NCBI RefSeq assembly: GCF_000239275.1
Contig: NZ_JH417572.1
Location: forward strand, 25,860-89,859
DNA: 64,000 nucleotides
From: Megasphaera geminata F0357
Lineage (GTDB): Bacteria; Bacillota; Negativicutes; Veillonellales; Megasphaeraceae
Reading direction: 5' to 3'
Part shown: positions 15,210-30,687 of the stretch, in pieces
Numbering within the stretch: position 1 is the first letter of the stretch
Layout: each line of letters begins with the position of its first letter
The notes under the pieces: generated by a model
Databases searched by the model: none
What the model saw: the letters and a program-made list of their open reading frames with translations, nothing else
Told to the model about the DNA's origin: nothing
Position numbers and translations under genes: made by a program

Positions 15210-16478
15210 ATGCTGTCTGTACGAGAGCTAGCCGCTAAAGAAAAAGAAACAACCGTCGCCTTACGCCGCCATTTCCATGAATATCCCGAACTTTCGCAAG
15301 AAGAGTTTGCAACAATGGACTATATTGAAGACCGGCTCCACAGCTGGAATATCCCCACTGTTCGCGTACCCCGGGGCGGTGTTATCGCCACTGTCGACAG
15401 CGGTAAACCGGGTTGGACAGTCCTTGTCCGTGCCGATATCGATGCGCTTGCCATTGAGGAAAAAAATACGAACCTGAGTGCAAAAAAAGCGGTCCTTTCA
15501 AAGAATAAGGGCGTTATGCACGCCTGCGGTCATGACGGCCATATGGCCATGGCCCTGACGGAAGCAAAAATTCTATCAGCCCACACGGATGCCTGGGAAG
15601 GCAGAGTTATTTTTATCTTCGAAGAAGCGGAGGAAGTCGGTGAACGGGGTATCTCCGCCCTGCTCCGTTACTTGCGCGACCACGCCGTTCACATCGACGC
15701 GGCCTACGGCACACACGTCATGTGGCGCCTTCCGGCCGGCAAGACGGGTATCCTCTACGGTACGGCTATGGCCGGCGCCTTCTTTTTCGCAGTGAAGCTC
15801 CACGGTTACGGCGGTCACGGCTCCCGGCCCGATATGGCAAAAAGCCCGATTGAAGCCTTTGTTTCCATTCAGAGTGAACTGCGCGCTTATCGTATGCGCG
15901 CCGTCCCGCCGGAAGAAAGCCTGACCTACTCTATCGGCTGCGTGAACGCCGGCTCCAAGCCGAATATCATTCCGTCGGAGCTTTCCTTCGCCGGCACGAT
16001 GCGTTGCACAGATAACGATAACGGCCTGGCATTCCGTGAATTCTTCAAAACCGCGTGTGCCCGTATTGCCGAAGAATACGGCTGCACTGCAGAATTCGTT
16101 GAAGATCAGTACATTCCCGTTGCAATGAACAACAAGGAGCTCGTCGACCTGGCCCGTCATGCCGTCGTCAATACCCTCGGCGAAGACGCTCTTGATCCGG
16201 ACTGCCCTATGTGGATGGCATCGGAAACCTTTGCCGTCATTCAAACTGCATACCCGTCAGTGCTCTTCTTTACAGGTATCCAGGATGCTGAAGTCGGCAG
16301 CGGCGCGCCTCATCACACACCGGAGTTCGACCTTTCCGAGGACGGCCTTGTCGCCGGCGTCGGAGCCGCACTTGCTTTCATCTTAGCCGCCCTCAGGGAA
16401 AAACCGGCTACACCGTCTTTTAAAGCCTCCGATCTGGATACGGTCCTTGAGATGTTTGATCCTGACAACCGCAAATAA
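15210..16478 (+). CDS. M20 family amidohydrolase (IAA-amino acid hydrolase/carboxypeptidase-like)
   Basis: 422-residue cytosolic zinc amidohydrolase. Family landmarks are RRHFHEYPELSQEE, RADIDALAIEE, the metal ligands HACGHDGHMAM, EEAEEVGERG (catalytic glutamates), GYGGHGSRPDMAKSP and the final histidine in GAPHHTPEFDLSE. It probably hydrolyses N-acyl amino acids or similar amides. TAGGAGGG precedes the ATG. The frame is intact and the gene is monocistronic with a terminator after it. Confidence 0.85.
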   Translation: MLSVRELAAKEKETTVALRRHFHEYPELSQEEFATMDYIEDRLHSWNIPTVRVPRGGVIATVDSGKPGWTVLVRADIDALAIEEKNTNLSAKKAVLSKNKGVMHACGHDGHMAMALTEAKILSAHTDAWEGRVIFIFEEAEEVGERGISALLRYLRDHAVHIDAAYGTHVMWRLPAGKTGILYGTAMAGAFFFAVKLHGYGGHGSRPDMAKSPIEAFVSIQSELRAYRMRAVPPEESLTYSIGCVNAGSKPNIIPSELSFAGTMRCTDNDNGLAFREFFKTACARIAEEYGCTAEFVEDQYIPVAMNNKELVDLARHAVVNTLGEDALDPDCPMWMASETFAVIQTAYPSVLFFTGIQDAEVGSGAPHHTPEFDLSEDGLVAGVGAALAFILAALREKPATPSFKASDLDTVLEMFDPDNRK

Positions 16479-16543: not shown

Positions 16544-17446
16544 TTACTCTATACGGGCATGTTTTCTATTCTTCATACGCACTTCATATATCTTCCGTAC
16601 AGGTAAGACGGTTTTTAAGCTTTTAAAGCAAAGCTGCCCCATAAATGACACCTTACCCGCACCTGTCAATATACCGTCTTCATAGGTCATCAGCCCCCGG
16701 GATGATGGAAAAAGCGGCACATATTTTGCAAAACGAACGGCTATGAGAGCGTTCGTCACTTTCGGGCAGAGATGGATGAGCGCTTTACCGTGCAGAGCGT
16801 CTTCCAACTTGCATAAAAAGGGGTAGAGATAAAACTGCGTATACGAAGAAGTGCCGTAATTGCCTAAAATCTCAACGGCGCTTGCCGAGTCGTCAATACT
16901 GATAACCTTTGCACCCGATCTTACAAGCTGTCCGTAATAAAAAACAAGGAAGTCGGCAATCTTTTTTATAACCGCCTCAAATTCAAAAACCTCTTTACGC
17001 ATGTCTCGCAGAACCGTTTCGGTTTCCATTAATCCGAAAAGCACATTTAAAGGCCCGCTGCCTTCAATAAAAACAGGTATTTTCTGCCGTCTGAAATATG
17101 AACAGCACTTGATTATTTCTTCCAAACGCCGGACATATACGGCATGGGGTATTCTCACATTGAGAAAATCGGCAAAGCTTTCGTAAGCACCGCGCATACT
17201 GCGAGGACCGCTTTTTTCATCCCCGCCATGAAGAATACCGCCGCAAGCGCCGACTTCAACAACATGGTCAAACGGCAAAAAGACCATTTTCTCATTGAAG
17301 GCCGTCTGCACGCGTACGGCGATATCCGTCATGTATTTTCTGTGCCAATAGACATCCGGTACAGGCAATCCGCTGCGGGTAATAATTTCCTGTATCTCCT
17401 TTTCCCGCTCCGTCAGCGGGCACTCAAAGGGTACAATCCGTGCCAT
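16544..17446 (-). CDS. URO-D family methyltransferase, short paralogue A
   Basis: 300 residues, related to the uroporphyrinogen decarboxylase/MtaA superfamily rather than to true HemE. A candidate zinc site is visible as H225-L-C227 and C273 (QLCFK). It is 40-odd percent similar by eye to the gene at 23728-24603, sharing FLPFDHVVE, GPRS and the TYEDG-GK-FMGQ-C tail. It begins one base after the stop of the 362-residue partner, so the two are co-translated and may form a complex. The likely role is methyl transfer to or from a corrinoid protein; the acceptor is unknown. Confidence 0.7.
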   Translation of the reverse strand: MARIVPFECPLTEREKEIQEIITRSGLPVPDVYWHRKYMTDIAVRVQTAFNEKMVFLPFDHVVEVGACGGILHGGDEKSGPRSMRGAYESFADFLNVRIPHAVYVRRLEEIIKCCSYFRRQKIPVFIEGSGPLNVLFGLMETETVLRDMRKEVFEFEAVIKKIADFLVFYYGQLVRSGAKVISIDDSASAVEILGNYGTSSYTQFYLYPFLCKLEDALHGKALIHLCPKVTNALIAVRFAKYVPLFPSSRGLMTYEDGILTGAGKVSFMGQLCFKSLKTVLPVRKIYEVRMKNRKHARIE

Positions 17447-18535
17447 TTATGCCTGTTCAAGCCCCTTCGGAAAGGCGCCTTTTTTCGCACCGCCGCCATA
17501 TGTCGTAGCGGCATTCATGAGCGCAATAAGGTTTTCTGCAGGCGTGCCCACAGGAGTGGTACAGCCGGGGCTCAAAACAAAGCCGCACGGATTGTCCGCC
17601 GCTTCGCGAAGACAACGGATAACCTCACGGCGCATGTCATCCGGCGTTCCGTTACGCAAGAGATCGACAGGATCGACATTGCCGATGATGCCGATGCGGC
17701 TGCCGAACAGATTCTTCAAATCCGTCATGTTCTCAATGTTGTCGACGGAAAAGGAAGAAATGCCGAAATCTACGATTTCCTGCCATCTGTCATGAGTTGT
17801 GCCGCAAATATGCATACTCGGCTTGGAGCCGAAAATTTTCGTCATCCGTTCTACTGTCTGTGTCATATAAGGGACGGCGTATTTTTTGAACATTCGCGGC
17901 GAAAGGAGATTGCGTGCAATGATCGGTTCGGCAATAGACGCCTTGATTCCGCAGTTCTTGTAGAGGCCTTCCGCCGCCGCCACGACATTGTCCGTCGCGA
18001 ACTGGAGGAGCTTTTCCGTTTCCTCGGGTTTCTTCATCATATCTTTGAGGAATTTTTCCGTCCCGATAAGAAAGGCTGCAACCGTAAAAGGACCGCCCAT
18101 GCCGGTGCCGATAATATGGGTTTTGCCGAATTTTTCCTGCAACCGGTTAAAAGCTTCCACCATAATCGGAAAACGGCCGTCTTTCGTTACGTCGACAAGC
18201 CGCATAGTATCAAGTTCATCATATGAATCAATAGCATGGCCCTCTACATGAGACACATTGTTTTCCGGTGTCACAATGGGTACTCCCAACGCTTCGGCAA
18301 CACCGCGCAACCCGACGCCCATGCCCATATTGTCGGCGCCGAAATCTTCGGCAATCTTTGTCTCCACTTCGACCATAAGATCTGCGGAAAAATAATAATC
18401 CCTATTTTGAATACCGTAACGCAGAGGACTCGTTTCTGCTGCCGTAAGCACGGCCGGGATACGATCCACCTCTTCTCCTGCCGCATAAGCCGTAAGCCGT
18501 TCACGCGGCGTCATTTCCGTTTTGATCAGTTCCAT
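17447..18535 (-). CDS. URO-D family methyltransferase, long paralogue A (MtaA/CmuA-like)
   Basis: 362 residues. The zinc-thiolate pattern HxC...C of corrinoid methyltransferases is present as H242-I-C244 and C325 (SPGCTTP). The chosen start, MELIKTEMTPRERL at 18535, matches its paralogue at 25692 and has GAGGAG about ten bases upstream; a GTG at 18544 is too close to that site. It is probably the enzyme that demethylates a substrate or moves a methyl group between a corrinoid and a thiol. The shared corrinoid protein is encoded at 23060-23710. Confidence 0.75.
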   Translation of the reverse strand: MELIKTEMTPRERLTAYAAGEEVDRIPAVLTAAETSPLRYGIQNRDYYFSADLMVEVETKIAEDFGADNMGMGVGLRGVAEALGVPIVTPENNVSHVEGHAIDSYDELDTMRLVDVTKDGRFPIMVEAFNRLQEKFGKTHIIGTGMGGPFTVAAFLIGTEKFLKDMMKKPEETEKLLQFATDNVVAAAEGLYKNCGIKASIAEPIIARNLLSPRMFKKYAVPYMTQTVERMTKIFGSKPSMHICGTTHDRWQEIVDFGISSFSVDNIENMTDLKNLFGSRIGIIGNVDPVDLLRNGTPDDMRREVIRCLREAADNPCGFVLSPGCTTPVGTPAENLIALMNAATTYGGGAKKGAFPKGLEQA

Positions 18536-18606
18536 GTCATACACTCCTCAGCGCAAAAATATGAACCTTTTTTCTTACCACGTTTATATACTAATCTGCC
18601 CGTTTA

Positions 18607-18732: not shown

Positions 18733-19551
18733 CTACCACATAGGCACCAAAGCCCCTTTATCATGTTGTGCGAAGTAAGCTTTCATTTCGTCTGTCTGCG
18801 ACGCCTTAATCAAATCCTGTACCCATTGCGCATCCTTATCTTCCTGTCGAACCACAAACCCCAAAGCATAATCTTTGCTGTCTTTCGATTCAGCAAGATA
18901 CTTGGAAGGATCCTTACCGGCATTGGCCATATGTGCCGATGCCAGCGCAATAGCATCATAATCTCCGATAGCCTGCGCCAACGAGGTCATTTCCGCCTCA
19001 ACAAATTTAAATTTATGCGGATTATCTTTAACGTCATAAATCGTAGCATTTTCGACACCCTGATTTAAAGTGATAAGGCCCAATTCAGCCAACATTTTCA
19101 ACCCGCGATTACGATTTGTCGTATCATTGCAAAGACCGATAACGGCACCATCGGGAATTTGCTTTACATCCGTATACTTATCGGAATAAAGACCGAAGCG
19201 CGCGTAATGCGTATACGGTTTAACCATCACAAAATCCGTCCCCTTGGATTTATTATAGCTTTCCAAATACGGCAGATGTTGATACCAATTGACATCAATA
19301 CTCTTTTCGCCGAGTGCGACATTCGGTAAAATGCTATCTTCAAAAGGTGTTACTTCCAACGTATAACCCAGCTTTTCCAGAGGCATACGCAAAAGTTCCG
19401 CCCGCTCCGCACCGTCGGCTCGAACACCTAATTTAATAACCTTCTTATCACCTTGAGCCGTACCGCTGTTGTCCAAAGTTCCGCATCCGGCCAGAACAAA
19501 CAGTAAAGAGGTCACTATTAATACCATAATACATACTACTGTCTTTTTCAT
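18733..19551 (-). CDS. metQ: MetQ/NlpA-family substrate-binding lipoprotein
   Basis: 272 residues. A lipoprotein signal with LAGC places the lipidated cysteine at residue 23. The mature part (KLGVRADGAERAELLRMPLE, VNWYQHLPYLESYN) is the NlpA fold that binds methionine or related compounds outside the membrane. It is the third gene of a metN-metI-metQ operon. Its position between two corrinoid methyltransferase modules suggests that the transporter may import the methyl donor or methionine; that is inference. Confidence 0.85.
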   Translation of the reverse strand: MKKTVVCIMVLIVTSLLFVLAGCGTLDNSGTAQGDKKVIKLGVRADGAERAELLRMPLEKLGYTLEVTPFEDSILPNVALGEKSIDVNWYQHLPYLESYNKSKGTDFVMVKPYTHYARFGLYSDKYTDVKQIPDGAVIGLCNDTTNRNRGLKMLAELGLITLNQGVENATIYDVKDNPHKFKFVEAEMTSLAQAIGDYDAIALASAHMANAGKDPSKYLAESKDSKDYALGFVVRQEDKDAQWVQDLIKASQTDEMKAYFAQHDKGALVPMW

Positions 19552-19567: not shown

Positions 19568-20236
19568 TTATTTTAATTTATTATATACAATATCCCCGAT
19601 ACACTGAATTACCAATACCAGGATAACTAAGATAACGCAGATGGAATACATAACCATGTCATTAAAATTCTGATACCCGTAAATCATAGCCGTCGCCCCC
19701 AACCCGCCGGCACCGATTGCCCCGGCCATGGCCGTTGCCCCGAGAAGATTGATAATTGCCAGTACGACACCGGAAACAATAGCCGGAACGGCTTCGACGA
19801 GCATGACGCGCATAACAATTTGTATTTTAGATGCTCCGAACGATTGCGCGACTTCAATAAGAGCCGGATTTACTTCCTGTAATGCATTCTGTATGATACG
19901 CCCCATAAAGGGCGAGCATGCAAAAGTCAACGGGACGATAGCCGCCTGCCAGCCGATAGAGGTTCCTACAAGAAATCTCGTCAGCGGTATGATGGATATC
20001 ATCAGAATGATAAACGGAAAGGAACGGACAACACTGACAAATACATCAAAAACCCGATATAAGAGCGGGTTTTCACAAAGTCCGCCTTTGCGAGTAAGCG
20101 CCAACATGAGGCCGATACACATACCGAAGAATACGGAAAGAATCATTGCCCATAAAAGCATCTTCATCGTCGCCAGAAAAGACGGAATGATAAGCACGCT
20201 GAAAAGCTGTCCGAAAGACATATTTTGTAACGGCAT
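19568..20236 (-). CDS. metI: MetI-type ABC transporter permease
   Basis: 222-residue inner-membrane permease with about five helices. The coupling segment EVAQSFGASKIQIVMRVMLVEA, which contacts the ATPase, and AMAGAIGAGGLGATAMIYGYQ are typical of MetI. It starts one base after the metN stop and precedes metQ by 16 bases, so the operon order is metN-metI-metQ. The frame is intact. Confidence 0.88.
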   Translation of the reverse strand: MPLQNMSFGQLFSVLIIPSFLATMKMLLWAMILSVFFGMCIGLMLALTRKGGLCENPLLYRVFDVFVSVVRSFPFIILMISIIPLTRFLVGTSIGWQAAIVPLTFACSPFMGRIIQNALQEVNPALIEVAQSFGASKIQIVMRVMLVEAVPAIVSGVVLAIINLLGATAMAGAIGAGGLGATAMIYGYQNFNDMVMYSICVILVILVLVIQCIGDIVYNKLK

Positions 20237-20237
20237 C

Positions 20238-21236
20238 TTATATCACCCGCTCTTTCTCACTTGCCTCAGTTTTGAGATAATGCCATATACAGTTTTTATT
20301 TTCCAAATAAGCAGCCACTCTTTCTCTGTCCCTATCTGTAATGCCCAGCCGGAAAACAGCCAGTCTGTCACTGGAAAATGTTTCGATACCGCCGCCGAGC
20401 GTCTTAAAAGATATATCCAACGTACGGGCTATATCGGCAAGAAGATTGAGTGTATCATCCGTTACTTCATAAGCAATTTGGATTATATTGCCGTCTGCCG
20501 CATTATACCGTTCTTCCTCTTCACCGAGAAGACGTTTCAGTGCGTTCGGCCGTTTAATAAATATAGATTTCACAGACCCTTCGGCGGCAATTTTTCCGTT
20601 CTCCAGAATACACGCCTTATTACAAATCTGACGAACAACTTCCATTTGATGAGTCACTACAATAACCGTAATACCGGTCTTTACATTAATTTGCTGCAAA
20701 AGATTCAAAACAGAACTGCTTGTGTTAGGATCCAATGCCGATGTAGCTTCATCACTCAACAGTAATTTCGGTTCCATTGTCAATGCTCTGGCAATAGCCA
20801 CTCGCTGCTTTTGCCCGCCCGATAAACTGCGGGGACGTACAGCAGCTTTATCGGCAAGGCCCACTAATTCGAGCAAATCAGTAACCTTTTTCCTGATTTT
20901 TTCATTTGAATACCCCCAACACTTCATCGGTAAGGCAACATTTTCATAAACCGTGCGGCGTTCCAAAAGAGAGAAATTCTGTAACACCATGCCTACACGA
21001 CGACGAACTTCCCTCATTTCCTTATATGTCAAATCCTTTACTTCCTTGCCGTCAAGAAAAATGTGCCCGCTATCATACCCGGCAAGACCGTTGATACAGC
21101 GCAACAGCGTAGACTTCCCCGCACCGCTGCGTCCGACAAGAGCATAAATATCACCGTCTTCAATCGTAAGGTTAATATTATCCAAAACAGTAACACCGTC
21201 AGACCATAATTTTTTCAAATTCTTAATTTCAATCAA
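20238..21236 (-). CDS. metN: MetN-type ABC transporter ATPase
   Basis: 332 residues. Walker A is GRSGAGKSTLL, the signature LSGGQKQRVAIARAL, Walker B LLSDEATSALDP. A C-terminal extension of about 85 residues fits the NIL ligand-sensing domain that allows methionine trans-inhibition. The start codon is TTG 21236 with GGAGGG eight bases upstream; a TTG start lowers translation. It is the first gene of metNIQ and has a leader with a possible attenuator. Confidence 0.88.
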   Translation of the reverse strand: MIEIKNLKKLWSDGVTVLDNINLTIEDGDIYALVGRSGAGKSTLLRCINGLAGYDSGHIFLDGKEVKDLTYKEMREVRRRVGMVLQNFSLLERRTVYENVALPMKCWGYSNEKIRKKVTDLLELVGLADKAAVRPRSLSGGQKQRVAIARALTMEPKLLLSDEATSALDPNTSSSVLNLLQQINVKTGITVIVVTHQMEVVRQICNKACILENGKIAAEGSVKSIFIKRPNALKRLLGEEEERYNAADGNIIQIAYEVTDDTLNLLADIARTLDISFKTLGGGIETFSSDRLAVFRLGITDRDRERVAAYLENKNCIWHYLKTEASEKERVI

Positions 21237-21479: not shown

Positions 21480-23057
21480 TTAGAACAATAAACACTTCGC
21501 AAAGAGGCGGTCATAATTTTCACTGTTACTGAGTTCAATATAATGAATATCCGCTGCCAGCTCTTCCGTTTCCTGCTTGGCTTTTTCCGAAAGAAGAGTG
21601 GACAACGCCCCTGTCTTGGCGGAGTTGCCCGCATAAATGAGTTTATCCGGGCTCACCGGCGGCAGAAGCCCGATTTCCAAGAGGGATTCAGCCGGCAAAT
21701 GAGCGCCGAACTGTCCGGCAATAAGGACGCGGTCCAAGTCTTTCGCCTTGAGACCGGCATGGTCGAGAAGCACTTCGATGCCTGAACGAATCGCTCCTTT
21801 AGCAAGTTGTACCTGACGCACGTCGCTCTGTGTGACAACAAGATCTTTCCCTGTCTTGGCAGTATGGATGGTAAATTCACGTTTCGTACCGTTGTAGTGA
21901 AGCATAGTTTTACGCCAATCATCGTTGTCGAAATTTTCCGGTTTATTGAAGACCCCGCGCTTCGTAACCAACCCCGTCCTCACGAGTTCACGAACGACCG
22001 CCAAAATACCGCTGCCGCAAAGGCCGACAGGAGGTACATCACCGATAACGGCGAGGTCGATACCGTCGGCACCGATTCGGATATCTTCAATCGCCCCGGC
22101 GGCCGCGCGCATGCCGGACGTAATATTCATTCCTTCCAGTGCCGGCCCTGCGGCACAGGAACAGGAATACATGCCGTCAGGCGTAGCCAAAACGAGTTCG
22201 CCGTTAGTACCGATATCAATGAAAAGGGCATTATCTCCGGTATTCTTCAAATCGCAAATATGAACCCCTGCCACAATATCCGCTCCAATGTAAGCCGATA
22301 CGGACGGCAACAGGTAGACAAGCGTGTCATCGTTACCGACAAGTCCCAGTTTTTTCGCCTTTAAGCGCAGGGCTTTCACAAAAACGGGCCGATACGGCGA
22401 CTTGCCGATAGGCCGGGCATCGACGCCAGCAAGCATGTGTTGCATCGTACAGTTGGCCGCCACATCGATTTCAATAAGCGAATCTGCGGCAATTCCCCTT
22501 TCAGCACAGACTTTTTCAGCCAGTTCATTAAGGCCGCCGACAATGGCTTTCTGCAGGGCCGCAATACCTGCAACACCGGCTTCCGTCTCATAGGTGATGC
22601 GTGTCAGTACATCGAGCCCGTATATTTTCTGCGGATTAATCATGGCGCCGGTAGCCGCTTCTTCGCCATTACGCAAATCGATAAGAGAGACAACGACCGT
22701 TGTCGTACCTATATCGACAGCCAGCCCGTAGCCGTCACGGGGATTATCGGGGATAATATTCGGTTTGAAGCCGTCCGTCGTAAAAACGTGTTCTTTTTCC
22801 GCTTCCGGCACTTCAACTGCAAGAACATCGCCGGTACTGCGAGCCATACAAGCAAGACGATACCCGGCGCGAATATCTTCTGCCGAAAGAAGGCGTTCTT
22901 CGGGCGCCGTAATCTCATCAACGGTGCCGCTTAAAATACGTACCTTGCATTTGCCGCATGTCCCCCTGCCGTTACAGCTGTTGGCCAGAGGTATCTTTTC
23001 GGCAAGGAGCCGTTCCATCAAGGAACGGCTCCCGTCACCGCGCACTGTTACTTTCAT
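21480..23057 (-). CDS. RACo-type ATP-dependent reductive activator of corrinoid protein
   Basis: 525 residues. The N-terminal [2Fe-2S] ferredoxin domain has C28, C34, C37 (CNGRGTCGKC) and C70. An ASKHA-type nucleotide-binding region follows (AVDIGTTTVVVSL, LFIDIGTNGEL, GQFGAHLPAESLLEIGLLP). Proteins of this family use ATP to drive reduction of inactive Co(II) to Co(I) in corrinoid methyltransferase systems. It follows the corrinoid protein gene by two bases, so the two are translationally coupled. Confidence 0.85.
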   Translation of the reverse strand: MKVTVRGDGSRSLMERLLAEKIPLANSCNGRGTCGKCKVRILSGTVDEITAPEERLLSAEDIRAGYRLACMARSTGDVLAVEVPEAEKEHVFTTDGFKPNIIPDNPRDGYGLAVDIGTTTVVVSLIDLRNGEEAATGAMINPQKIYGLDVLTRITYETEAGVAGIAALQKAIVGGLNELAEKVCAERGIAADSLIEIDVAANCTMQHMLAGVDARPIGKSPYRPVFVKALRLKAKKLGLVGNDDTLVYLLPSVSAYIGADIVAGVHICDLKNTGDNALFIDIGTNGELVLATPDGMYSCSCAAGPALEGMNITSGMRAAAGAIEDIRIGADGIDLAVIGDVPPVGLCGSGILAVVRELVRTGLVTKRGVFNKPENFDNDDWRKTMLHYNGTKREFTIHTAKTGKDLVVTQSDVRQVQLAKGAIRSGIEVLLDHAGLKAKDLDRVLIAGQFGAHLPAESLLEIGLLPPVSPDKLIYAGNSAKTGALSTLLSEKAKQETEELAADIHYIELSNSENYDRLFAKCLLF

Positions 23058-23059
23058 AT

Positions 23060-23710
23060 TTATTTACGCCCTGTAAGACGATCTGCCTGATGCACCGCAT
23101 CAACGGCATTCGGCGAGAACGTATCCGCACCGATTTTATCAGCAAACACCTGCGTAATAGGAGCCCCGCCGATCATGACCTTAACGGAATCGCGGAGACC
23201 GCGTTCCTTAAGCATGTTAACAACCGTACCCATCCCCTCCATTGTCGTCGTCATGAGCGTAGACATACAGAGAACATCGGCATGTTCTTTTTCAACTGCA
23301 TCGACAAAATTCTGCAAAGGAACATCTTTGCCGAGGTCAATAACACGGTACCCGCCCGTTTCCATCATCGTCTTGACAAGGTTCTTACCTATATCATGCG
23401 TATCGCCCTCGATAACACCGATAACGGCAACCTTTTCTTCAGCTTCCGTGTTCTGATCCAGATGAGGCTTCAAGACATCCACGCCGGCATACATAGCGTC
23501 GGCACAGAGAAGGATATCGGAAACAAAATATTCTTCTTCTTCATACATCTTTCCGGCGCGGGTCATACCGTCTACGAGGCCTTCCATAATACCGTCCAGC
23601 GCTTCATAGTCATTGTCGATGTACGCCTGTGCCGCCTCTACGACATCTTCATCATCCATCTCAAATACATCGTCAGACAAGCGTTTCAACAATTCCTCTT
23701 TTTCGCTCAT
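23060..23710 (-). CDS. Corrinoid (B12-binding) methyl-carrier protein
   Basis: 216 residues. A helical methionine-synthase-type cap domain (residues 1-90) precedes a B12-binding Rossmann domain. The signature D103-T-H105-D-I-G places histidine 105 as the lower cobalt ligand. MtaC/MtbC-like proteins carry the methyl group on cobalt between two methyltransferases. It is the only corrinoid protein in the window, so both URO-D modules must share it unless others exist elsewhere. The start follows AAGGAG. Confidence 0.9.
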   Translation of the reverse strand: MSEKEELLKRLSDDVFEMDDEDVVEAAQAYIDNDYEALDGIMEGLVDGMTRAGKMYEEEEYFVSDILLCADAMYAGVDVLKPHLDQNTEAEEKVAVIGVIEGDTHDIGKNLVKTMMETGGYRVIDLGKDVPLQNFVDAVEKEHADVLCMSTLMTTTMEGMGTVVNMLKERGLRDSVKVMIGGAPITQVFADKIGADTFSPNAVDAVHQADRLTGRK

Positions 23711-23727
23711 ACTCGAATGCTCCTTTC

Positions 23728-24603
23728 TTATTGCAATGTAATTTTTAAGATTTTATTCGCATTTACAGTGGATTTCGCATTTTTAATACACATTTGGCCC
23801 ATAAATCCGGCTTTGCCGACAGCATACAGCCACCCGTCTTCATAGGTCAATGTACTCCTGTCCGTTACACCGAGAGGTTCATAGATACCCGTTTCTGTAC
23901 CGGTAAGAGCAAAAGCCGTTTTCGGGCAAAGGAGGAACAGCGCCTTATGCTCTACCGTTGCTTCAAGGACTTTAAGGAACGGTGCTACCCTGTTTACAGT
24001 ATAATCCGTCAGTATTTTCGGTCCCATAATAGTAACCGTCGCCACGGCATCACCGTAGCTGATAATTTTCACGCCTGTATCAACGGCGGCCTTGATATAG
24101 GTTTGCAAATTCCGTTCTATCTTGTCGAAGATCTGATTCATCAGGTCGGGCTTACGGCGCATCCCCTTAAAAACTTCCTTCAAATCAATGAGACTGTTCA
24201 GAACAGTCACGGGACCGACAACTTCAAGAATAACTGTCTCACCCTCATCTGCCAGGATTCGGCAGGCCTGTAATACTTCAGCCATGCGCCCCTTCGTAAC
24301 ATCAAGATCGGGCAGTGCGGAAATTTCTTCAAGTCTCGTGCAGACATACCCGTTGCTGCGCGGGCCCACCTGTGCACTGCCGTAGTTGACAGACGCGCCG
24401 AGCGCTTCCGCTTCGACGACATGATCGAAAGGCAGATAGACAACTTTATCATTGAGTTCGGCTTTCACGGCGCGAGCCAGAGTAACCATATCGGCGCCGT
24501 TTCTATAGACATCGGGGATAGCCAGGCCGCATTTTTGAACGAGGGAAACTATGGAATCTTCCTTCGTTCCGTAACTGCAGGGATAGTCTTTAATTTCAGC
24601 CAT
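23728..24603 (-). CDS. URO-D family methyltransferase, short paralogue B
   Basis: 291 residues, paralogue of the 16544-17446 gene. The tail motif TYEDG-GKAGFMGQMC is conserved (C272). The histidine that precedes the central cysteine in paralogue A is replaced by leucine (L224-L-C226), so any zinc site must be built differently or is lost. It begins immediately after the stop of the long paralogue B and lies 17 bases before the corrinoid protein gene. It is probably the second methyltransferase or an accessory subunit of this corrinoid system. Confidence 0.7.
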   Translation of the reverse strand: MAEIKDYPCSYGTKEDSIVSLVQKCGLAIPDVYRNGADMVTLARAVKAELNDKVVYLPFDHVVEAEALGASVNYGSAQVGPRSNGYVCTRLEEISALPDLDVTKGRMAEVLQACRILADEGETVILEVVGPVTVLNSLIDLKEVFKGMRRKPDLMNQIFDKIERNLQTYIKAAVDTGVKIISYGDAVATVTIMGPKILTDYTVNRVAPFLKVLEATVEHKALFLLCPKTAFALTGTETGIYEPLGVTDRSTLTYEDGWLYAVGKAGFMGQMCIKNAKSTVNANKILKITLQ

Positions 24604-25692
24604 TTATGCCAGCTCCATTCCTTTAGGCATCCGTCCCATCTTAGCACCTTTACCGTAAATCGTCGCATTATTCATAATAGCGACGACATTTTCTTTCGGC
24701 GTGCCGATGGGTGTCGTGCAGCCGGGCGTAAGGATAAATCCTTTCGGGGTGTCCCCGGCTTCACGCAGACAGCGGATGACTTCGTTTTTCATATCTTCGG
24801 GCGTGCCGTTACGAAGAAGATCGACAGGATCGATATTGCCGACAACGGCAACTTTATCGCCGTAAAGATTTTTAAGGTCTTCCATGTTTTCGCAGTTGTC
24901 GACGGAAAAAGACGAAATACCCCAGTTCACAAAATCTTCCCAACGGTCATGTGTGGAGCCGCAAACATGCAGCCCCGGAGCTTCGCCGTAAAGATCGGTC
25001 AGACGCTGAATCAGTTGTCCCATGTAAGGAACGGCATACTTCTTGAAAAGGCGCGGGGCCAGAAGATTGCGGGCGATAATCGGTTCAGCCAGAGAAGATT
25101 TGATCCCCGTTTCCTTATAGAGCTGTTCGCAGCAGGCATAAATATTATCGTTAGCGTATTGGAGCAGCTTTTCCGTCTCTTCCGGCTTCTTGATCATATC
25201 TTTAAGGAATTTTTCCGTACCGATGAGAAAGGCAGCCAGGGTGAAACATGCGCCCATTCCCGTATCGATAATATAAGTATCTCCCCATTTATCCTGAAGG
25301 CGTTTAAATGCTTCCAGCATAATAGGAAGACGGCCGTCTTTGTGGATATCGACGATTTTTCTGCCGTCCAGCTCATCATATGACTGTATTGCCGGCCCGT
25401 CTACATGCGAAACGTTGTTCAACGGAAATGCCAAAGGAACACCCAAGGCTTCAGCCACACCGCGAAGCCCGATACCCATGCCCATGTTGTCGGCGCCGAA
25501 ATCTTCAGCCAAATGAGATTCCACTTCAACCATCAGATCCGCATCAAAATAGTAATCTTTATTTTGAATACCGTATGTAATCGGGCTCGTCTCCCCGGAA
25601 CTGAGAATGGTCGGAATGCGGTCAACTTCTTCGCCGTCCATATACTTTGTAAGTCGTTCTTTCGGAGCCATTTCCGTCTTAATTAATTCCAT
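24604..25692 (-). CDS. URO-D family methyltransferase, long paralogue B (MtaA/CmuA-like)
   Basis: About 362 residues, closely similar to paralogue A over its full length (shared DYYF, FGADNMGMG, GLRGVAEALGVP, AEPIIARNLL, SFSVDN, NVDPVDLLRNGTP). The HxC...C zinc site is retained (LHVCGSTHDRW and TPGCTTPIGTP). The start MELIKTEMAPKERL at 25692 has AAAAGGAG upstream; a longer ORF from 25743 is unlikely. It is the second gene of the operon that begins with the double-cubane protein. Confidence 0.75.
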   Translation of the reverse strand: MELIKTEMAPKERLTKYMDGEEVDRIPTILSSGETSPITYGIQNKDYYFDADLMVEVESHLAEDFGADNMGMGIGLRGVAEALGVPLAFPLNNVSHVDGPAIQSYDELDGRKIVDIHKDGRLPIMLEAFKRLQDKWGDTYIIDTGMGACFTLAAFLIGTEKFLKDMIKKPEETEKLLQYANDNIYACCEQLYKETGIKSSLAEPIIARNLLAPRLFKKYAVPYMGQLIQRLTDLYGEAPGLHVCGSTHDRWEDFVNWGISSFSVDNCENMEDLKNLYGDKVAVVGNIDPVDLLRNGTPEDMKNEVIRCLREAGDTPKGFILTPGCTTPIGTPKENVVAIMNNATIYGKGAKMGRMPKGMELA

Positions 25693-25781
25693 GTTATACT
25701 CTCCTTTTTCTCGCCAGGCCTTCAACTTCCTTGCATATCCCATTCTCTCCGTCCCCGGGGATACAAGCCGCTACAATCTTA

Positions 25782-26933
25782 TTAAAGCATTTCAATAAAC
25801 GCCGCCAAACGTGTATTGAGCTGACCGACATCGGTCCTGGAATAATCCGTTTCAATGTAAATATAGGGAATTTCCTTTTTTTCCGTCACGAAACGATGAA
25901 TTTGTTTTGATTCAACACTGTACGTATGACATGCCTGCAAGACCATTTCGACGACACCGTCGATTTTATATTCGTCAATCATCGAGTCGAGAAGTTCAAA
26001 GCGGTTCTTATTCGGCGACATGACCGAACAGCCGATGCCGAGATAGCGTTCACCGATCGCACCGTAAATATCCTCCGTATCTTCCTCAACAAGCCGTTCA
26101 ATGGCTTTGGCTCCGGAACAGTTTTCATAGCCCACAACAACGCCGCCGTTATCTTCGATCGCCTGAATCACTTTTTCCGTCGCGCCGCCCATAGGACAGC
26201 CCGTAATAAGAATACGCGGACGTTTATCGATGTGTTTGCCGGCACCGTAGTCGGCTTCTATCTTTTCCGTCATAGCTTTGATTTCCTCGGGCAGAATACT
26301 CCGGTCCAGCTTGAACGTACTTCCGTAAAGGACCTTAAAGAGATCGTATCCCATAATCGGAGCCGGGTCATGCTTCATGACATGATAAAGTCCCTGTAAA
26401 GCTTTGCGCACTTCATTTTCCGTATGAACGGCTTCTCGTATATTTTCTTCCGTAATGGTGACGCCGAACTTCTCTTCCAGCTTTTCCTTCAACAGGAGAA
26501 TCGACTCTCTCCAGAATTTCTGCCCCCGCTCATCCTGTGACTGAGGCATCTCCATAACGTATACGTCTTTGAACTGACCCATCATTTCGTACATCTTCTT
26601 TTTACCGTCACACGTCATTTCGCCGACAATGAGATCGGAGAAATAAAAATACGGACATTTATCGGTCTTGGCAAAGCCGTAACTCGCTTTAATGAGCGGA
26701 CAGAGGTTTTTCGGCAGATCCCGTTCAGCCACTTCAATCGTTTCGTCCGACATGGAACAGAGACTGACCGTTGCGGCCCCCATAGCCATCGGCAGTTCTT
26801 TCGGAAAATACGTGCAATACGAACCGACAATAGGGATGCCTTTATCTTTAGCTTCTTTCACGGCGAGAAAAGAATTCTTACGCTGTTCCGCAAATTCTTC
26901 AAATACTTCAGGTAAATCTTTTACAAGTTCCAT
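25782..26933 (-). CDS. Double-cubane cluster protein (2-hydroxyacyl-CoA dehydratase family, YjiM-like)
   Basis: 383 residues, related to HgdB/HgdC-type dehydratase subunits. Conserved cysteines appear in GSYCTYFP, NLCPLIK, TDKCPYF, ENCSGAK and QACHTYS, and ITGCPMGG is also present. Single-subunit members of this family are known to carry an [8Fe-9S] double-cubane and to be reduced by a partner ATPase, which is present at 27251-28024. No second dehydratase subunit is present, arguing against a true dehydratase. It heads the operon leading into methyltransferase B, the corrinoid protein and RACo. Confidence 0.75.
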   Translation of the reverse strand: MELVKDLPEVFEEFAEQRKNSFLAVKEAKDKGIPIVGSYCTYFPKELPMAMGAATVSLCSMSDETIEVAERDLPKNLCPLIKASYGFAKTDKCPYFYFSDLIVGEMTCDGKKKMYEMMGQFKDVYVMEMPQSQDERGQKFWRESILLLKEKLEEKFGVTITEENIREAVHTENEVRKALQGLYHVMKHDPAPIMGYDLFKVLYGSTFKLDRSILPEEIKAMTEKIEADYGAGKHIDKRPRILITGCPMGGATEKVIQAIEDNGGVVVGYENCSGAKAIERLVEEDTEDIYGAIGERYLGIGCSVMSPNKNRFELLDSMIDEYKIDGVVEMVLQACHTYSVESKQIHRFVTEKKEIPYIYIETDYSRTDVGQLNTRLAAFIEML

Positions 26934-27195
26934 AGTACCCCTCTTTTCAGTATTTACTTTAATTATAGGGCAGACTTTTCATACGGGCTAATATGTATTA
27001 CTCTTTCTTTAGTATTCCTTTTTTCTATGTTCTCATTCAAAACCATGTGTTTATACTATGAGGCAGAAATAACTTACAGAGCTTTGCAACCACTTCACAG
27101 AAATTGTCTTTATCATTCAGAAGAGGTTCAAATACCGCCATATACAAACAATGAAACATGAAAGTACAATACAAACGCAGAGATAACCGCATTAT
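26934..27195. other. Promoter region between double-cubane protein and activator genes
   Basis: About 260 bases of AT-rich sequence without a convincing ORF. It holds the promoter for the minus-strand operon (next entry). A palindrome-like ATACT-N8-AGTAT-type stretch occurs upstream of it near 27000-27020. Confidence 0.4.
26962..26992 (-). promoter_or_regulatory. Promoter of double-cubane/methyltransferase B operon (ATTAG-N20-TATAATTAAA)
   Basis: TATAAT at 26967-26962 with ATTAG (26992-26988) exactly 20 bases upstream, 29 bases before the start codon of the first gene. Confidence 0.55.
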
Positions 27196-27197
27196 TA

Positions 27198-27243
27198 AAG
27201 CAAAAAAAACACCGCCTGTTACGAGGCGATGTTTTTTGCTTTA
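27198..27243 (-). terminator. Intrinsic terminator of the activator gene
   Basis: CATCGCC/GGCGGTG-type hairpin enclosed in AAAGC/GCTTT arms and followed by eight T on the minus strand. It separates the activator from the double-cubane operon. Confidence 0.85.
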
Positions 27244-27250
27244 TCTGATT

Positions 27251-28024
27251 TTATCCGTCCGCTTCTGCGGCAAGGACCGCCGCACCGATGGCGCCGGCAA
27301 AGCGCGCCTTCGGATCGGAACAGACTTTCCTGCCGAAAGAATCACTCAGCAGTTTAAGAAAATATACATCTTCACAAAGGCCGCCCGTCAAGAAAATAGG
27401 CAGATCCTGCTCGGAGAGTTTCGCATATTCCTGTCGTACCTTCTTAACGACCGACTGTAAAACACCCCAGGCAATATTAGGTTTTGACGTTCCCTGCCCG
27501 ATAAGGGAAACGATTTCCGATTCGGCAAAAACCGTACACATGGCGCTGATTTGCAATTGTTCCGTATGGTCACGGGCAATTCTGTCCAGATCCGCCAGTG
27601 TCACATTAAGCCTGTTTGCCATGATTTCAAGAAATTTTCCGGTACCGGCGGAACACTTGTCGTTCATATAGAATTCCATAACCTTTCCTTTGTGGCAGGA
27701 AATAACTTTTGTATCCTGTCCGCCTATATCGACGATGTTGAACGTGTCTTCACCGAAGAGGACGCTGGCCCCCTTCGCATGGCATGTAATCTCCGTAACG
27801 CGTTTTTTGGCCCCTTCCACGGCCTGACGGCCATATCCTGTGGAGATACAGTACATATCCTCAAAATTATAACCTTTAATACGCAGTTTTTCTTTAATTT
27901 CTTTAAGTGCCTCCAAACTGCTCCAGCCTGTGGGAATAACAAACGTGTCCAAAATTCCCCGTTCCTTATTCATGATCACCGACTTGGCGCAGGTCGAGCC
28001 GATATCTATACCTAAATATGTCAT
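27251..28024 (-). CDS. ASKHA activator ATPase of the double-cubane protein (HgdC/YjiL-like)
   Basis: 257 residues. Nucleotide-binding motifs are LGIDIGSTCAKSV, VDIGGQDTKV and FLTGGLCED. The two cluster-binding cysteines of the homodimeric [4Fe-4S] cluster lie in DKCSAGTGKF and SAMCTVFAESEIVSLI. Such activators couple ATP hydrolysis to delivery of a very low-potential electron to the dehydratase or double-cubane partner. GGGGAG precedes the ATG. It has its own terminator and is divergent from the LysR gene. Confidence 0.85.
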   Translation of the reverse strand: MTYLGIDIGSTCAKSVIMNKERGILDTFVIPTGWSSLEALKEIKEKLRIKGYNFEDMYCISTGYGRQAVEGAKKRVTEITCHAKGASVLFGEDTFNIVDIGGQDTKVISCHKGKVMEFYMNDKCSAGTGKFLEIMANRLNVTLADLDRIARDHTEQLQISAMCTVFAESEIVSLIGQGTSKPNIAWGVLQSVVKKVRQEYAKLSEQDLPIFLTGGLCEDVYFLKLLSDSFGRKVCSDPKARFAGAIGAAVLAAEADG

Positions 28025-28231
28025 TATAAAGCGTCTCCCCTTTTACGGATACCGATATCCCGTTTGCTCTTTTCTTCATTATACATGACTTGTAAAGCGT
28101 CACGTCATGTTCAGAGAAACTTATGCTCCGTTTATTAATACATAGAATTTATCTATTGGTTTATTTAATGAAAATTATGTTATGATAAGAAAGTAATTTT
28201 GTACATTATATATTCAGTAAGGAACACCGTC

Positions 28232-29140
28232 ATGATGGAATTAAAACAACTTGAATCATTTGTTGCCGTTATTAAATACGGCAGCTTCACTAAAGCGGCA
28301 CATGTACTCTATATGTCACAACCGTCTATCAGCACGCATATCCGCGCTTTAGAGCGGCAGCTTGATACACCTCTGATTATCCGCACTACGAAACAGATCC
28401 GTATTACGCCGCGAGGCCGTGAGCTTTACGGCATGGCGATATCCATGCTGAAATTACGCGACGATCTTCTCTCAAAATGGCAGCATGAAGATTCGCATGA
28501 AATTATTATCAGCGCGTCCACCATCCCGTCCATCTATTTGCTCCCGCAAATTCTGCGGGGGTTTCATAAACTCTACCCTGATATTCCCTTTACGATTAAT
28601 CAGGACGTAAGCTCAAAGGTCGTCGCCTCCCTTTTAAAGGGACAGATCCAAGTCGGCTTTACCGGTATGGAAACGGAGGAAGACGCGCTTGAATTCGTTC
28701 CTGTCGCCTTCGATCGCATGGTAGTCATCACACCGAACTCACCGGTCTTCCGTCAGATGGCCTCCCAAGACGACGCGGCTTTGCAGATCCTTTCGAAGTA
28801 TCCTTTGATTCTCCGCGATAAAGGCAGCGGCAGTAAAGCCCATATTGACAGTATTTTTGAGAAGCTCCGTCTCACGCCCGACAAATTACATGTAACAGCT
28901 CATTTAAGCGAACCCGAAGGGATCAAGAATCTCGTTATTAATCATGACGGTGTCTCGGTCATTTCCGAACCGGCAGTCACCAATGCGGTTAAAGAAGGGA
29001 CCCTTCTCAAATTTAACCTGCCGAAAAAACTGGCCTTGCGCCAGCTCTATATGGTGTACCACAAACACGATACTCAATCAAGCCATGTAAAACACTTTAT
29101 CAGCTATGTCAAATCCCTCGGCTGGAAAAAACAGGACTGA
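28232..29140 (+). CDS. LysR-family transcriptional regulator
   Basis: About 302 residues. The N-terminal helix-turn-helix (MELKQLESFVAVIKYGSF, AAHVLYMSQPSISTHIRALE) is followed by a type 2 periplasmic-binding-like ligand domain resembling the CysL/CbbR group. Start ATG 28232 (or 28235) follows TAAGGA. It is divergent from the activator ATPase and next to the corrinoid locus, so it is the best local candidate for its regulator. The ligand is unknown. Confidence 0.85.
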   Translation: MMELKQLESFVAVIKYGSFTKAAHVLYMSQPSISTHIRALERQLDTPLIIRTTKQIRITPRGRELYGMAISMLKLRDDLLSKWQHEDSHEIIISASTIPSIYLLPQILRGFHKLYPDIPFTINQDVSSKVVASLLKGQIQVGFTGMETEEDALEFVPVAFDRMVVITPNSPVFRQMASQDDAALQILSKYPLILRDKGSGSKAHIDSIFEKLRLTPDKLHVTAHLSEPEGIKNLVINHDGVSVISEPAVTNAVKEGTLLKFNLPKKLALRQLYMVYHKHDTQSSHVKHFISYVKSLGWKKQD

Positions 29141-29208: not shown

Positions 29209-30687
29209 TTACATCACCGTTTCGTCGCCGGCCTCATATTCTTCCTGCTGTATTTCAATTGTCTTCACAAAATAAACATGATCGGCAAACTTATCTTTAT
29301 ACTTTATTTTACAATAGCTTCCGAAGATTATGCCGAGGAAGACCCATCCGACAACCATGGCCCATTCCTGCGGTAAAAGAGCCGATCCCGATCCGGGTAC
29401 GATGTACATAATAAGCATAACGCCCGACATGAACACCGCCATAACGCCGACAAAGCGATAGGGGCCTACCCGATAGGGCCGTTTCATATCCGGCTCCTTC
29501 ATGCGCAAGACCAGAAAGGACAGGGAAACGATAAAATAAGCCAGCACACATCCGAAATTGCCGGCATCAACAACCCAGAGCAGCATTTTCTTGCCGAAAA
29601 AAACGGCGATTATCGTAATAACACCCAAGAGGAAAAGCGCGTTAACAGGCGTCTTATATCGCGGGTGGAGTTTAGCAAAAACCGGCGGAATCATATTGGC
29701 ACAGGCCATGGAATACATAGCACGGCTGCCGCCGATAAGAAAGGAATTCCAGCTCGTAATAATACCGCAAAGACCGCCGACAATCAGGACCTTCGCCATC
29801 ATATCACTGTTAAAGGCCTTGGCCATGGCATCAGCCGTAACGAGACCGCCGACACTTTGCATGGACAAGGAAATATCGGCATTGTTCATAAGATACCCGA
29901 CGGCACCTATGACGAAAGAATAAAAAGCGACTGCAAGAATAATGGACAACACGAGAATACGGCCGATATTTTTCAGAGATGCGGAAATCTCTTCAGCCGC
30001 CTGGGGAATAACGTTAAACCCGATAAAAAAGAAAGGCGTCATAACGGCTACGGCCAGGGTGTTCTTCACCATCTCTGTCGTTGTCGCCCCGACAAAGTAC
30101 TGCCCTTCCAAATTGGCTGCATGGCCTGTAATCCCCGCTGCCGCGATGAGGACAATGCCGACCGCCCCGATGATTAAAGTAAGGCCGGTCTGCAAGATCG
30201 CCGCCGTCTTGGCGCCGACAATGTTGACATATGTAATCAGGATGACAAGGCTGATGGCCAAAACCAGCCATGTCGCATAAATATCAAAACCGCCGACACT
30301 GTACAAGTACCATTGCAGAAATTCCGGATACAAATACGCAAAGATAGTCGGCAAGGCGCACGCTTCAAAGCAGACGACACCAGTATATCCGAAAATAATG
30401 GACCAGGTGCAAATAAATGACCCTATCTTGCCGAGAGCCCTGTAACTGAAAACGTGTTCACCGCCGTTTTGCGGCATTGCAGTCGTCAGCTCCGCATAGG
30501 CAAGACCGACAAAGAAAATCATGATGCCGCCCAACACGAAGCCTATCATGGCACCCAGTACGCCCCCCTGCATAATCCAGTCCCCTGTCGAAACAACCCA
30601 GGCCCACCCGATCATCGCCCCAAAGGCCAATACCAATATATCCCATAAATTAAGTACTTTATTAAATTCAGAATTTTTCTGTGACAT
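29209..30687 (-). CDS. APC-family amino-acid permease
   Basis: 492-residue membrane protein with about 12 helices. The start region LWDILVLAFGAMIGWAWVVSTGDWI and MPQNGGEHVFSYRALGK match amino acid-polyamine-organocation transporters. The C-terminal tail is hydrophilic and acidic. GAGG precedes the ATG. It is intact and monocistronic. The substrate is not evident; proximity to the corrinoid locus is suggestive but weak evidence. Confidence 0.8.
   Translation of the reverse strand: MSQKNSEFNKVLNLWDILVLAFGAMIGWAWVVSTGDWIMQGGVLGAMIGFVLGGIMIFFVGLAYAELTTAMPQNGGEHVFSYRALGKIGSFICTWSIIFGYTGVVCFEACALPTIFAYLYPEFLQWYLYSVGGFDIYATWLVLAISLVILITYVNIVGAKTAAILQTGLTLIIGAVGIVLIAAAGITGHAANLEGQYFVGATTTEMVKNTLAVAVMTPFFFIGFNVIPQAAEEISASLKNIGRILVLSIILAVAFYSFVIGAVGYLMNNADISLSMQSVGGLVTADAMAKAFNSDMMAKVLIVGGLCGIITSWNSFLIGGSRAMYSMACANMIPPVFAKLHPRYKTPVNALFLLGVITIIAVFFGKKMLLWVVDAGNFGCVLAYFIVSLSFLVLRMKEPDMKRPYRVGPYRFVGVMAVFMSGVMLIMYIVPGSGSALLPQEWAMVVGWVFLGIIFGSYCKIKYKDKFADHVYFVKTIEIQQEEYEAGDETVM

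Follow-up and report, generated by a model that had tools for sequence, protein, structure and literature searches.

A double-cubane-cluster reductase gene in a corrinoid methyltransferase cluster of Megasphaera geminata F0357 and its co-occurrence with selenium genes

Described systems and the gene set of the locus

The window analysed here (64,000 nucleotides of Megasphaera geminata F0357, contig NZ_JH417572.1, positions 25,860 to 89,859 of the forward strand; contig C13 of the 1.8-Mb genome, 88% complete) holds a gene for a double-cubane-cluster reductase (DCC) in a run of genes for URO-D-type methyltransferases, a corrinoid protein and RACo, the ATP-dependent reductive activator of corrinoid proteins. 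To our knowledge the natural role of double-cubane proteins is not known, nor is the natural substrate of the Carboxydothermus protein DCCP, and the literature search returned no title or abstract stating a natural role for the family. URO-D methyltransferase, corrinoid protein and RACo are also the core of O-demethylase operons.

Type 1 mlp (MtaA-like protein) gene clusters, which have at least one Mlp2 and one Mlp3, were defined by Kountz & Balskus (preprint, PMC10418091). According to the passages available, methyl-selenium or methyl-sulfur metabolism is proposed for them, methionine salvage being one role offered; selenocysteine genes are present in 87% of the species that carry them, a "dicubane cluster protein" and methionine transporters are among the extra cluster genes, Mlp2 of Clostridium ljungdahlii is active on selenide, and zinc is bound by His-Cys-Cys ligands with exceptions allowed among Mlps1. 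The same passages describe loci of a nitrogenase-like methylthio-alkane reductase with MtaA-like proteins, in which an ATP-driven low-potential reductase likewise stands beside MtaA-like URO-D genes but belongs to another protein family than DCC. The SdmABC methyl-selenide system of Methanococcus (passages of PMC11097638, and the M. voltae work cited there) also combines a corrinoid protein with MtaA-like methyltransferases and is tied to dimethylselenide use and selenium depletion (SdmABC-like genes were up 5.6-7.8 log2-fold upon selenium depletion in M. maripaludis); its host is archaeal, and DCC, MetNIQ and LysR_Se are not mentioned in those passages. The LysR_Se regulator is tied to SelD-containing organisms in the passages seen of PMC5322559, which also list genes for activases and for members of the dehydratase family among the neighbours of selenium genes. 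The passages seen of PMC13188914 do not mention a double-cubane protein, and a link between YjiM and selenium in PMC6262375 was rejected as a mere table listing of separate proteins. Searches for double-cubane together with selenium, or with corrinoid and methyltransferase, returned no further relevant paper. As judged from these searches and passages, the pairing of DCC with corrinoid genes is already in print, and no genome counts of the kind given below were found there.

By its gene content the locus looks like a corrinoid methyltransferase cluster of the mlp type, a kind known from gut bacteria, in a bacterium that uses selenium. It shares with type 1 mlp clusters several MtaA-like URO-D proteins, a corrinoid protein, a RACo-type activase, a methionine-type transporter, the dicubane protein and a selenocysteine-using host, as well as the lack of a folate methyltransferase domain among the genes scanned, which were those of the window and not the rest of the genome. 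It differs in having two URO-D types with two copies each, one short URO-D without the His ligand, and no member of the UDX-type lineage in the URO-D tree, which most other complete clusters examined have (UDL, UDS, COR, UDX, UDL2 and UDS2 are short names coined in this analysis).

All genes described for this DNA in an earlier note were found in place, every one on the minus strand. Its claim of two distinct ATP-driven low-potential systems at one corrinoid locus stands: the domains of RACo and the family models of DCC and the ASKHA activator were all matched above cut-off (Table 1). Read leftwards from 28024, the order is ASKHA activator, hairpin, DCC, UDL, UDS, COR, RACo, MetN-, MetI- and MetQ-type genes, UDL2 and UDS2. 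The gaps between DCC and URO-D, URO-D and URO-D, URO-D and corrinoid protein, and corrinoid protein and RACo are 38, 0, 17 and 2 bp, so the run begins with DCC; the note had DCC heading an operon of methyltransferase B, corrinoid protein and RACo, which holds for its position, whereas "methyltransferase B" turned out to be two different URO-D proteins. DCC and activator, described there as one second system, are both present, but the activator probably lies outside the DCC operon because a terminator-like hairpin and a gap of 317 bp intervene. The conserved unit extends beyond both ends of the stretch described there (21480-28024), to a LysR gene on one side and, at 21236-16544, to a further pair of URO-D genes and those of MetNIQ type on the other. 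The functional unit is larger than first described and includes the transporter, the second URO-D pair and the selenium-type LysR. For the three transporter genes the curated MetN, MetI and MetQ models were the best matches yet scored under cut-off; the genes are therefore named MetNIQ-type, a label that fixes no imported substrate.

UDL and UDL2 are 71% identical. The H-x-C and C of UDL2 align with those of MtaA (4ay7, E 2.4e-28), MtaA is the sister of the UDL/UDL2-type clade in the URO-D tree (support 99/98), which gave no firm assignment to Mlp1, Mlp2 or Mlp3, UDS2 is on a long branch of that tree, and MtaA/CmuA-family models match all four URO-D proteins, all below the curated cut-off. The zinc motif H-x-C...C is present in three of the four (UDL, UDL2 and UDS2). 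An in-frame TGA in a URO-D match of genome G166 was rejected as a selenocysteine codon; it lies upstream of the start of the open reading frame.

The best solved relative of DCC is 6eno (E 2.6e-80), which we take to be the DCCP of Carboxydothermus; eight Cys are invariant in 117/117 rows of the DCC alignment and aligned with Cys of 6eno. Both proteins belong to the same family by model, and in both cases an ASKHA activator is nearby, the difference being that the window gene sits in a corrinoid operon. From family membership the DCC reaction is predicted to be an ATP-dependent reduction via an [8Fe-9S] cluster. The ASKHA activator is presumed to activate the window DCC; an activator gene adjoins DCC in the congener G007 and in many other DCC loci.

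Reductase, selenium and corrinoid genes across genomes

The genome makes selenoproteins, as concluded from SelD with one in-frame TGA (G000:C46:108473-109396), SelA and YedE. A second DCC is encoded on contig C15 in the order YedF, SelA, DCC, Se/S carrier, and YedE and a further Se/S-carrier gene are near SelD. Among the same-genus SelD matches listed, the full-length ones also have one in-frame TGA, except for the second copy in G001.

Co-occurrence was counted in 300 genomes of the class, 280 from the family to which G305 belongs and 14 controls, with a UDL2-type URO-D (E <= 1e-60 in the class sample) as marker of the cluster. In the class sample DCC was found in 26 genomes, the URO-D marker in 22 and SelD in 99. 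SelD was present in 25/26 DCC genomes (p 1.8e-12 against 99/300 overall) and in 18/22 marker genomes (p 1.4e-6), and DCC in 17/22 marker genomes as compared with 26/300 overall (p 3e-17). When the marker genomes were divided by SelD, DCC was present in 17/18 with SelD and in 0/4 without (p 6.8e-4); three of these four have COR and RACo genes at the locus and DCC nowhere in the genome. The family sample contained DCC in 39 genomes (38 above cut-off), SelD in 87 and the marker in 11; SelD was present in 36 of the 39 (p 5e-18 against 87/280), and the 11 marker genomes all had DCC (39/280 overall), 10 of them with SelD. SelD was also found in 43/43 genomes behind 45 loci of the 80-locus set described below, and among the 14 controls only E. 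coli and M. jannaschii had DCC, the same two being the only ones with SelD. It is selenium that DCC tracks, even when the comparison is confined to genomes with the URO-D marker.

Neighbourhoods were counted within a radius of 10 kb in two sets, 80 loci with 87 DCC copies and 29 class loci with 30 copies (window copy excluded), a corrinoid link being defined as two or more corrinoid-cluster gene types; many locus flanks stop at contig ends, so that these counts are lower bounds. Corrinoid genes were near 8/87 and 7/30 copies, selenium genes near 26/87 and 16/30, and both near 0 and 6 copies, respectively. In many loci DCC was located among genes for SelA, SelB, SelD, YedE, YedF or a Se/S carrier, and in class locus L162 a stretch of 20 kb holds DCC, its activator, SelB, SelD, YedF, YedE, a Sec lyase-like gene of the cysteine-desulfurase family and genes for URO-D and RACo.

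The gene set itself is conserved. The congener G007 has, one after the other, LysR, activator, DCC, UDS, COR, RACo, a gene of the enolase superfamily and UDL2, the LysR gene being at the same position and likewise over the NF040786 cut-off; MetNIQ, UDL and UDS2 were not found in the 19.5-kb stretch. The enolase-superfamily gene (L095:5354-6535, dehydratase-like) lies between RACo and UDL2, at the place that MetNIQ has in the window. In Lachnospiraceae (L057, L061, L064, L065 and L068, partly L066 and L070) the order is PucR-type regulator, DCC, MetN, MetI, MetQ, membrane transporter and UDL2, often followed by a CobW-type protein and then by UDS, COR, UDX (which is a third type of URO-D) and RACo, the regulator, transporter and CobW genes not being whole in every locus; the URO-D beside the MetNIQ-type genes is 53-56% identical to the window UDL2. 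In class genome G127 (L185), DCC and MetN, MetI and MetQ face a UDL2-type gene. Since the same gene set is found in another order in Lachnospiraceae and partly in G007, the arrangement of the window is not due to chance, and content that is kept while order shuffles argues for shared function. The recurrence of the pairing, for which the earlier note had proposed a co-occurrence check, was also evident from a quick 117-row DCC tree, in which 10 changes are required to account for the 18 corrinoid-linked rows, with no fewer than 6 of these forced by well supported branches, and in which window and G007 form a single clade (support 100). The tree suggests that two DCC lineages entered the cluster independently (window clade and Lachnospiraceae), but an AU test leaves a single clade unrejected (p 0.291).

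Proposed role of the reductase and competing explanations

A reading held with moderate confidence is that methylated seleno- or thio-compounds are demethylated via the corrinoid protein, that RACo repairs the corrinoid, and that DCC is a selenium-associated reductase acting on the selenium (or sulfur) side and not the donor of RACo. The MetNIQ-type proteins would import a methylated thio- or seleno-compound, from which the Zn-dependent URO-D proteins would take the methyl group and hand it first to the corrinoid protein in its Co(I) state, then to another thiol or selenol; RACo, with a [2Fe-2S] domain and an ASKHA ATPase of its own, would restore Co(I) after oxidation to Co(II). Together with an activator of its own, DCC might, for example, supply SelD with selenide by reducing selenium species that were released or oxidised, or else cleave a C-Se or C-S bond reductively. 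The LysR_Se-type regulator probably couples expression to selenium status. Substrate, direction of methyl transfer, DCC reaction and regulation are thus proposals, and gene content, families, co-occurrence with SelD and co-location with selenium genes are observed.

Several observations weigh against this reading. Neither a selenium gene nor two corrinoid-cluster gene types lay within 10 kb of 53/87 and 13/30 DCC copies. Among SelD-containing class genomes the URO-D marker was found in 17/25 with DCC and in 1/74 without, so selenium alone does not explain DCC, and the Fisher tests take genomes as independent and ignore shared ancestry. DCC is missing from 5/22 marker genomes of the class, one of which has SelD (G064); conversely, DCC was found with no SelD match in family genomes G395, G444 and G568 (3/39) and class genome G139 (1/26), the DCC match of G395 (338 bits) being under cut-off and G568 having the URO-D marker in addition. 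UDS has Leu at the position expected for the zinc His. Most relatives of the UDS type also have Leu there, while the residue is His in UDS2 and L210 and Asn in L211.

That DCC supplies low-potential electrons to RACo or to the corrinoid protein in its Co(II) state, as the earlier note had proposed, is suggested by its place at the head of the operon, with 38 bp to the gene that follows, by the recurrent co-location with RACo and corrinoid genes, by the fact that DCC still tracks the URO-D marker inside SelD-containing genomes and by the order sample, in which DCC (E <= 1e-90) and short URO-D were found in the same 2/61 genomes. Against these stand the 79/87 and 23/30 DCC copies away from corrinoid genes, the 2Fe-2S domain that RACo itself has, and the three of four SelD-less marker genomes in which COR and RACo do without DCC. 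A general donor role is unlikely because DCC genes are mostly distant from corrinoid genes, and the donor function is considered quite improbable for this locus too. The usual separation of DCC from corrinoid genes in relatives, named in the earlier note as the finding that would speak against its pairing, is largely what was observed. Its alternative, that DCC reduces the substrate, is the better half of an interpretation that is partly supported overall. An O-demethylase-type catabolic operon in which tetrahydrofolate receives the methyl groups and to which the adjacent DCC gene is unrelated would share the core of URO-D, corrinoid protein and RACo and is considered very improbable: the folate methyltransferase domain was not found among the window genes scanned, the zinc site H-x-C...C is of the S-methyltransferase kind (compare the passages available of PMC10418091), and UDL2 is much closer to MtaA than to the Acetobacterium CdmB chain (E 9.1e-6).

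Rather unlikely, and less so than either of these, is that the cluster serves methyl-sulfur compounds (methionine or derived thioethers), that DCC reduces a sulfur compound and that the selenium link is a by-product of anaerobic lifestyle and ancestry. The MetNIQ-type transporter of the window and the Lachnospiraceae clusters, the methionine salvage offered as a role in the passages of PMC10418091 and the frequency of SelD in the class sample agree with it; it is opposed by the absence of DCC from all four SelD-less marker genomes of the class, by the many DCC loci amid selenium genes, by the LysR_Se gene of the window and by the 43/43 genomes with SelD.

Among 30 loci with a UDL/UDL2-type gene, DCC was within 10 kb in 7, nitrogenase-like genes (families verified for five example proteins) in 9 and both in none, and this pattern of one or the other, never both, suggests that related methyltransferase sets are combined with either of two ATP-driven reductases. 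The nine loci with nitrogenase-like and UDL2-type genes and never a DCC nearby (L197, L198, L199, L202, L203, L206, L207, L208 and L209) are of the same class as the window; three of them also have a NifH-like gene. Of the SelD-less marker genomes, three have the corrinoid set with neither reductase at the locus, and the fourth (G077) has nitrogenase-like genes. A tentative and rather doubtful extension would make DCC the equivalent, on the selenium side, of the nitrogenase-like methylthio-alkane reductase, an ATP-driven enzyme for the reductive breakage of C-Se (or C-S) bonds in MetNIQ-imported compounds, in series with the corrinoid set. If this were true, the double-cubane family would gain a physiological role. 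The DCC-SelD counts point to where the function of DCC should be sought and make a long open question testable, with a bearing on the recycling of organic selenium by gut anaerobes.

Feature table and further observations

Table 1. Features of the cluster, in window coordinates (scores in bits)
Feature	Position	Strand	Evidence
LysR regulator, selenium-metabolism-associated subfamily; divergent from activator	28199..29140	+	NF040786 284.5, cut-off 250
Presumed DCC activator, an ASKHA ATPase of the acyl-CoA dehydratase activase family	27251..28024	-	TIGR00241 228, cut-off 125; PF01869 175
Terminator-like hairpin, activator/DCC gap	27204..27237	-	14 pairs and T run; pattern match alone
Double-cubane-cluster reductase (DCC), first gene of corrinoid operon	25782..26933	-	NF040772 double_cubane 530, cut-off 350
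URO-D (MtaA-like) methyltransferase UDL, Zn motif H-x-C...C	24604..25743	-	PF01208 above cut-off; TIGR01463 below cut-off
Short URO-D-type protein UDS, 291 aa, motif L-x-C...C	23728..24603	-	PF01208 83
Corrinoid protein COR	23060..23710	-	PF02607, PF02310 above cut-off; TIGR02370 204, slightly below cut-off 215
RACo, ATP-dependent corrinoid reductive activator	21480..23057	-	Fer2, Raco_middle, RACo_C_ter (Pfam; 2Fe-2S, middle and ASKHA C-terminal domains), all above cut-off
MetN-type ABC ATPase	20238..21236	-	TIGR02314 best match, 266, below equivalog cut-off 499.7; NIL domain below cut-off
MetI-type ABC permease	19568..20236	-	NF008049 184, below cut-off 212; PF00528 above cut-off
MetQ/NlpA-type substrate-binding lipoprotein	18733..19551	-	PF03180 190, cut-off 27; TIGR00363 below cut-off
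Second URO-D (MtaA-like) methyltransferase UDL2, H-x-C...C	17447..18544	-	PF01208 239
Second short URO-D-type protein UDS2, H-x-C...C	16544..17446	-	PF01208 56
M20 amidohydrolase facing cluster, possible accessory	15210..16478	+	TIGR01891 274, cut-off 154; PF01546

An Rfam scan of 14000-36000 gave zero RNA elements at gathering scores and hence no riboswitch that could hint at the substrate. The promoter-like sites numbered 21, at the level of shuffled sequence (mean 20.2), and were not used. An open reading frame similar in appearance to the M20 amidohydrolase adjoins URO-D in G007. An amino acid permease-family gene (29209-30687) adjoins the LysR_Se gene, is kept in G007 (82% identical) and may belong to the LysR_Se regulon.

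Ten DCC proteins of 713-737 aa (L069, L071, L072, L074, L075, L076, L077, L082, L083 and L084) have a C-terminal extension resembling PucR-type regulators; in L074, the one scanned, Pfam finds HGD-D and a PucR helix-turn-helix, i.e. a reductase fused to a DNA-binding domain. A PucR-type gene is directly upstream of DCC in several Lachnospiraceae corrinoid clusters. In the Megasphaera genome a 2-hydroxyacyl-CoA dehydratase subunit gene beside an activator (G000:C28, L213:8391-9680) is split into several frames near the contig end and is a pseudogene or an assembly error. In class loci YedF and the Sec-lyase-like gene in the vicinity of DCC are accompanied by a recurrent pair of genes for proteins of ~185 and ~200 aa, the second with DUF3841 (L172:12509-13635).

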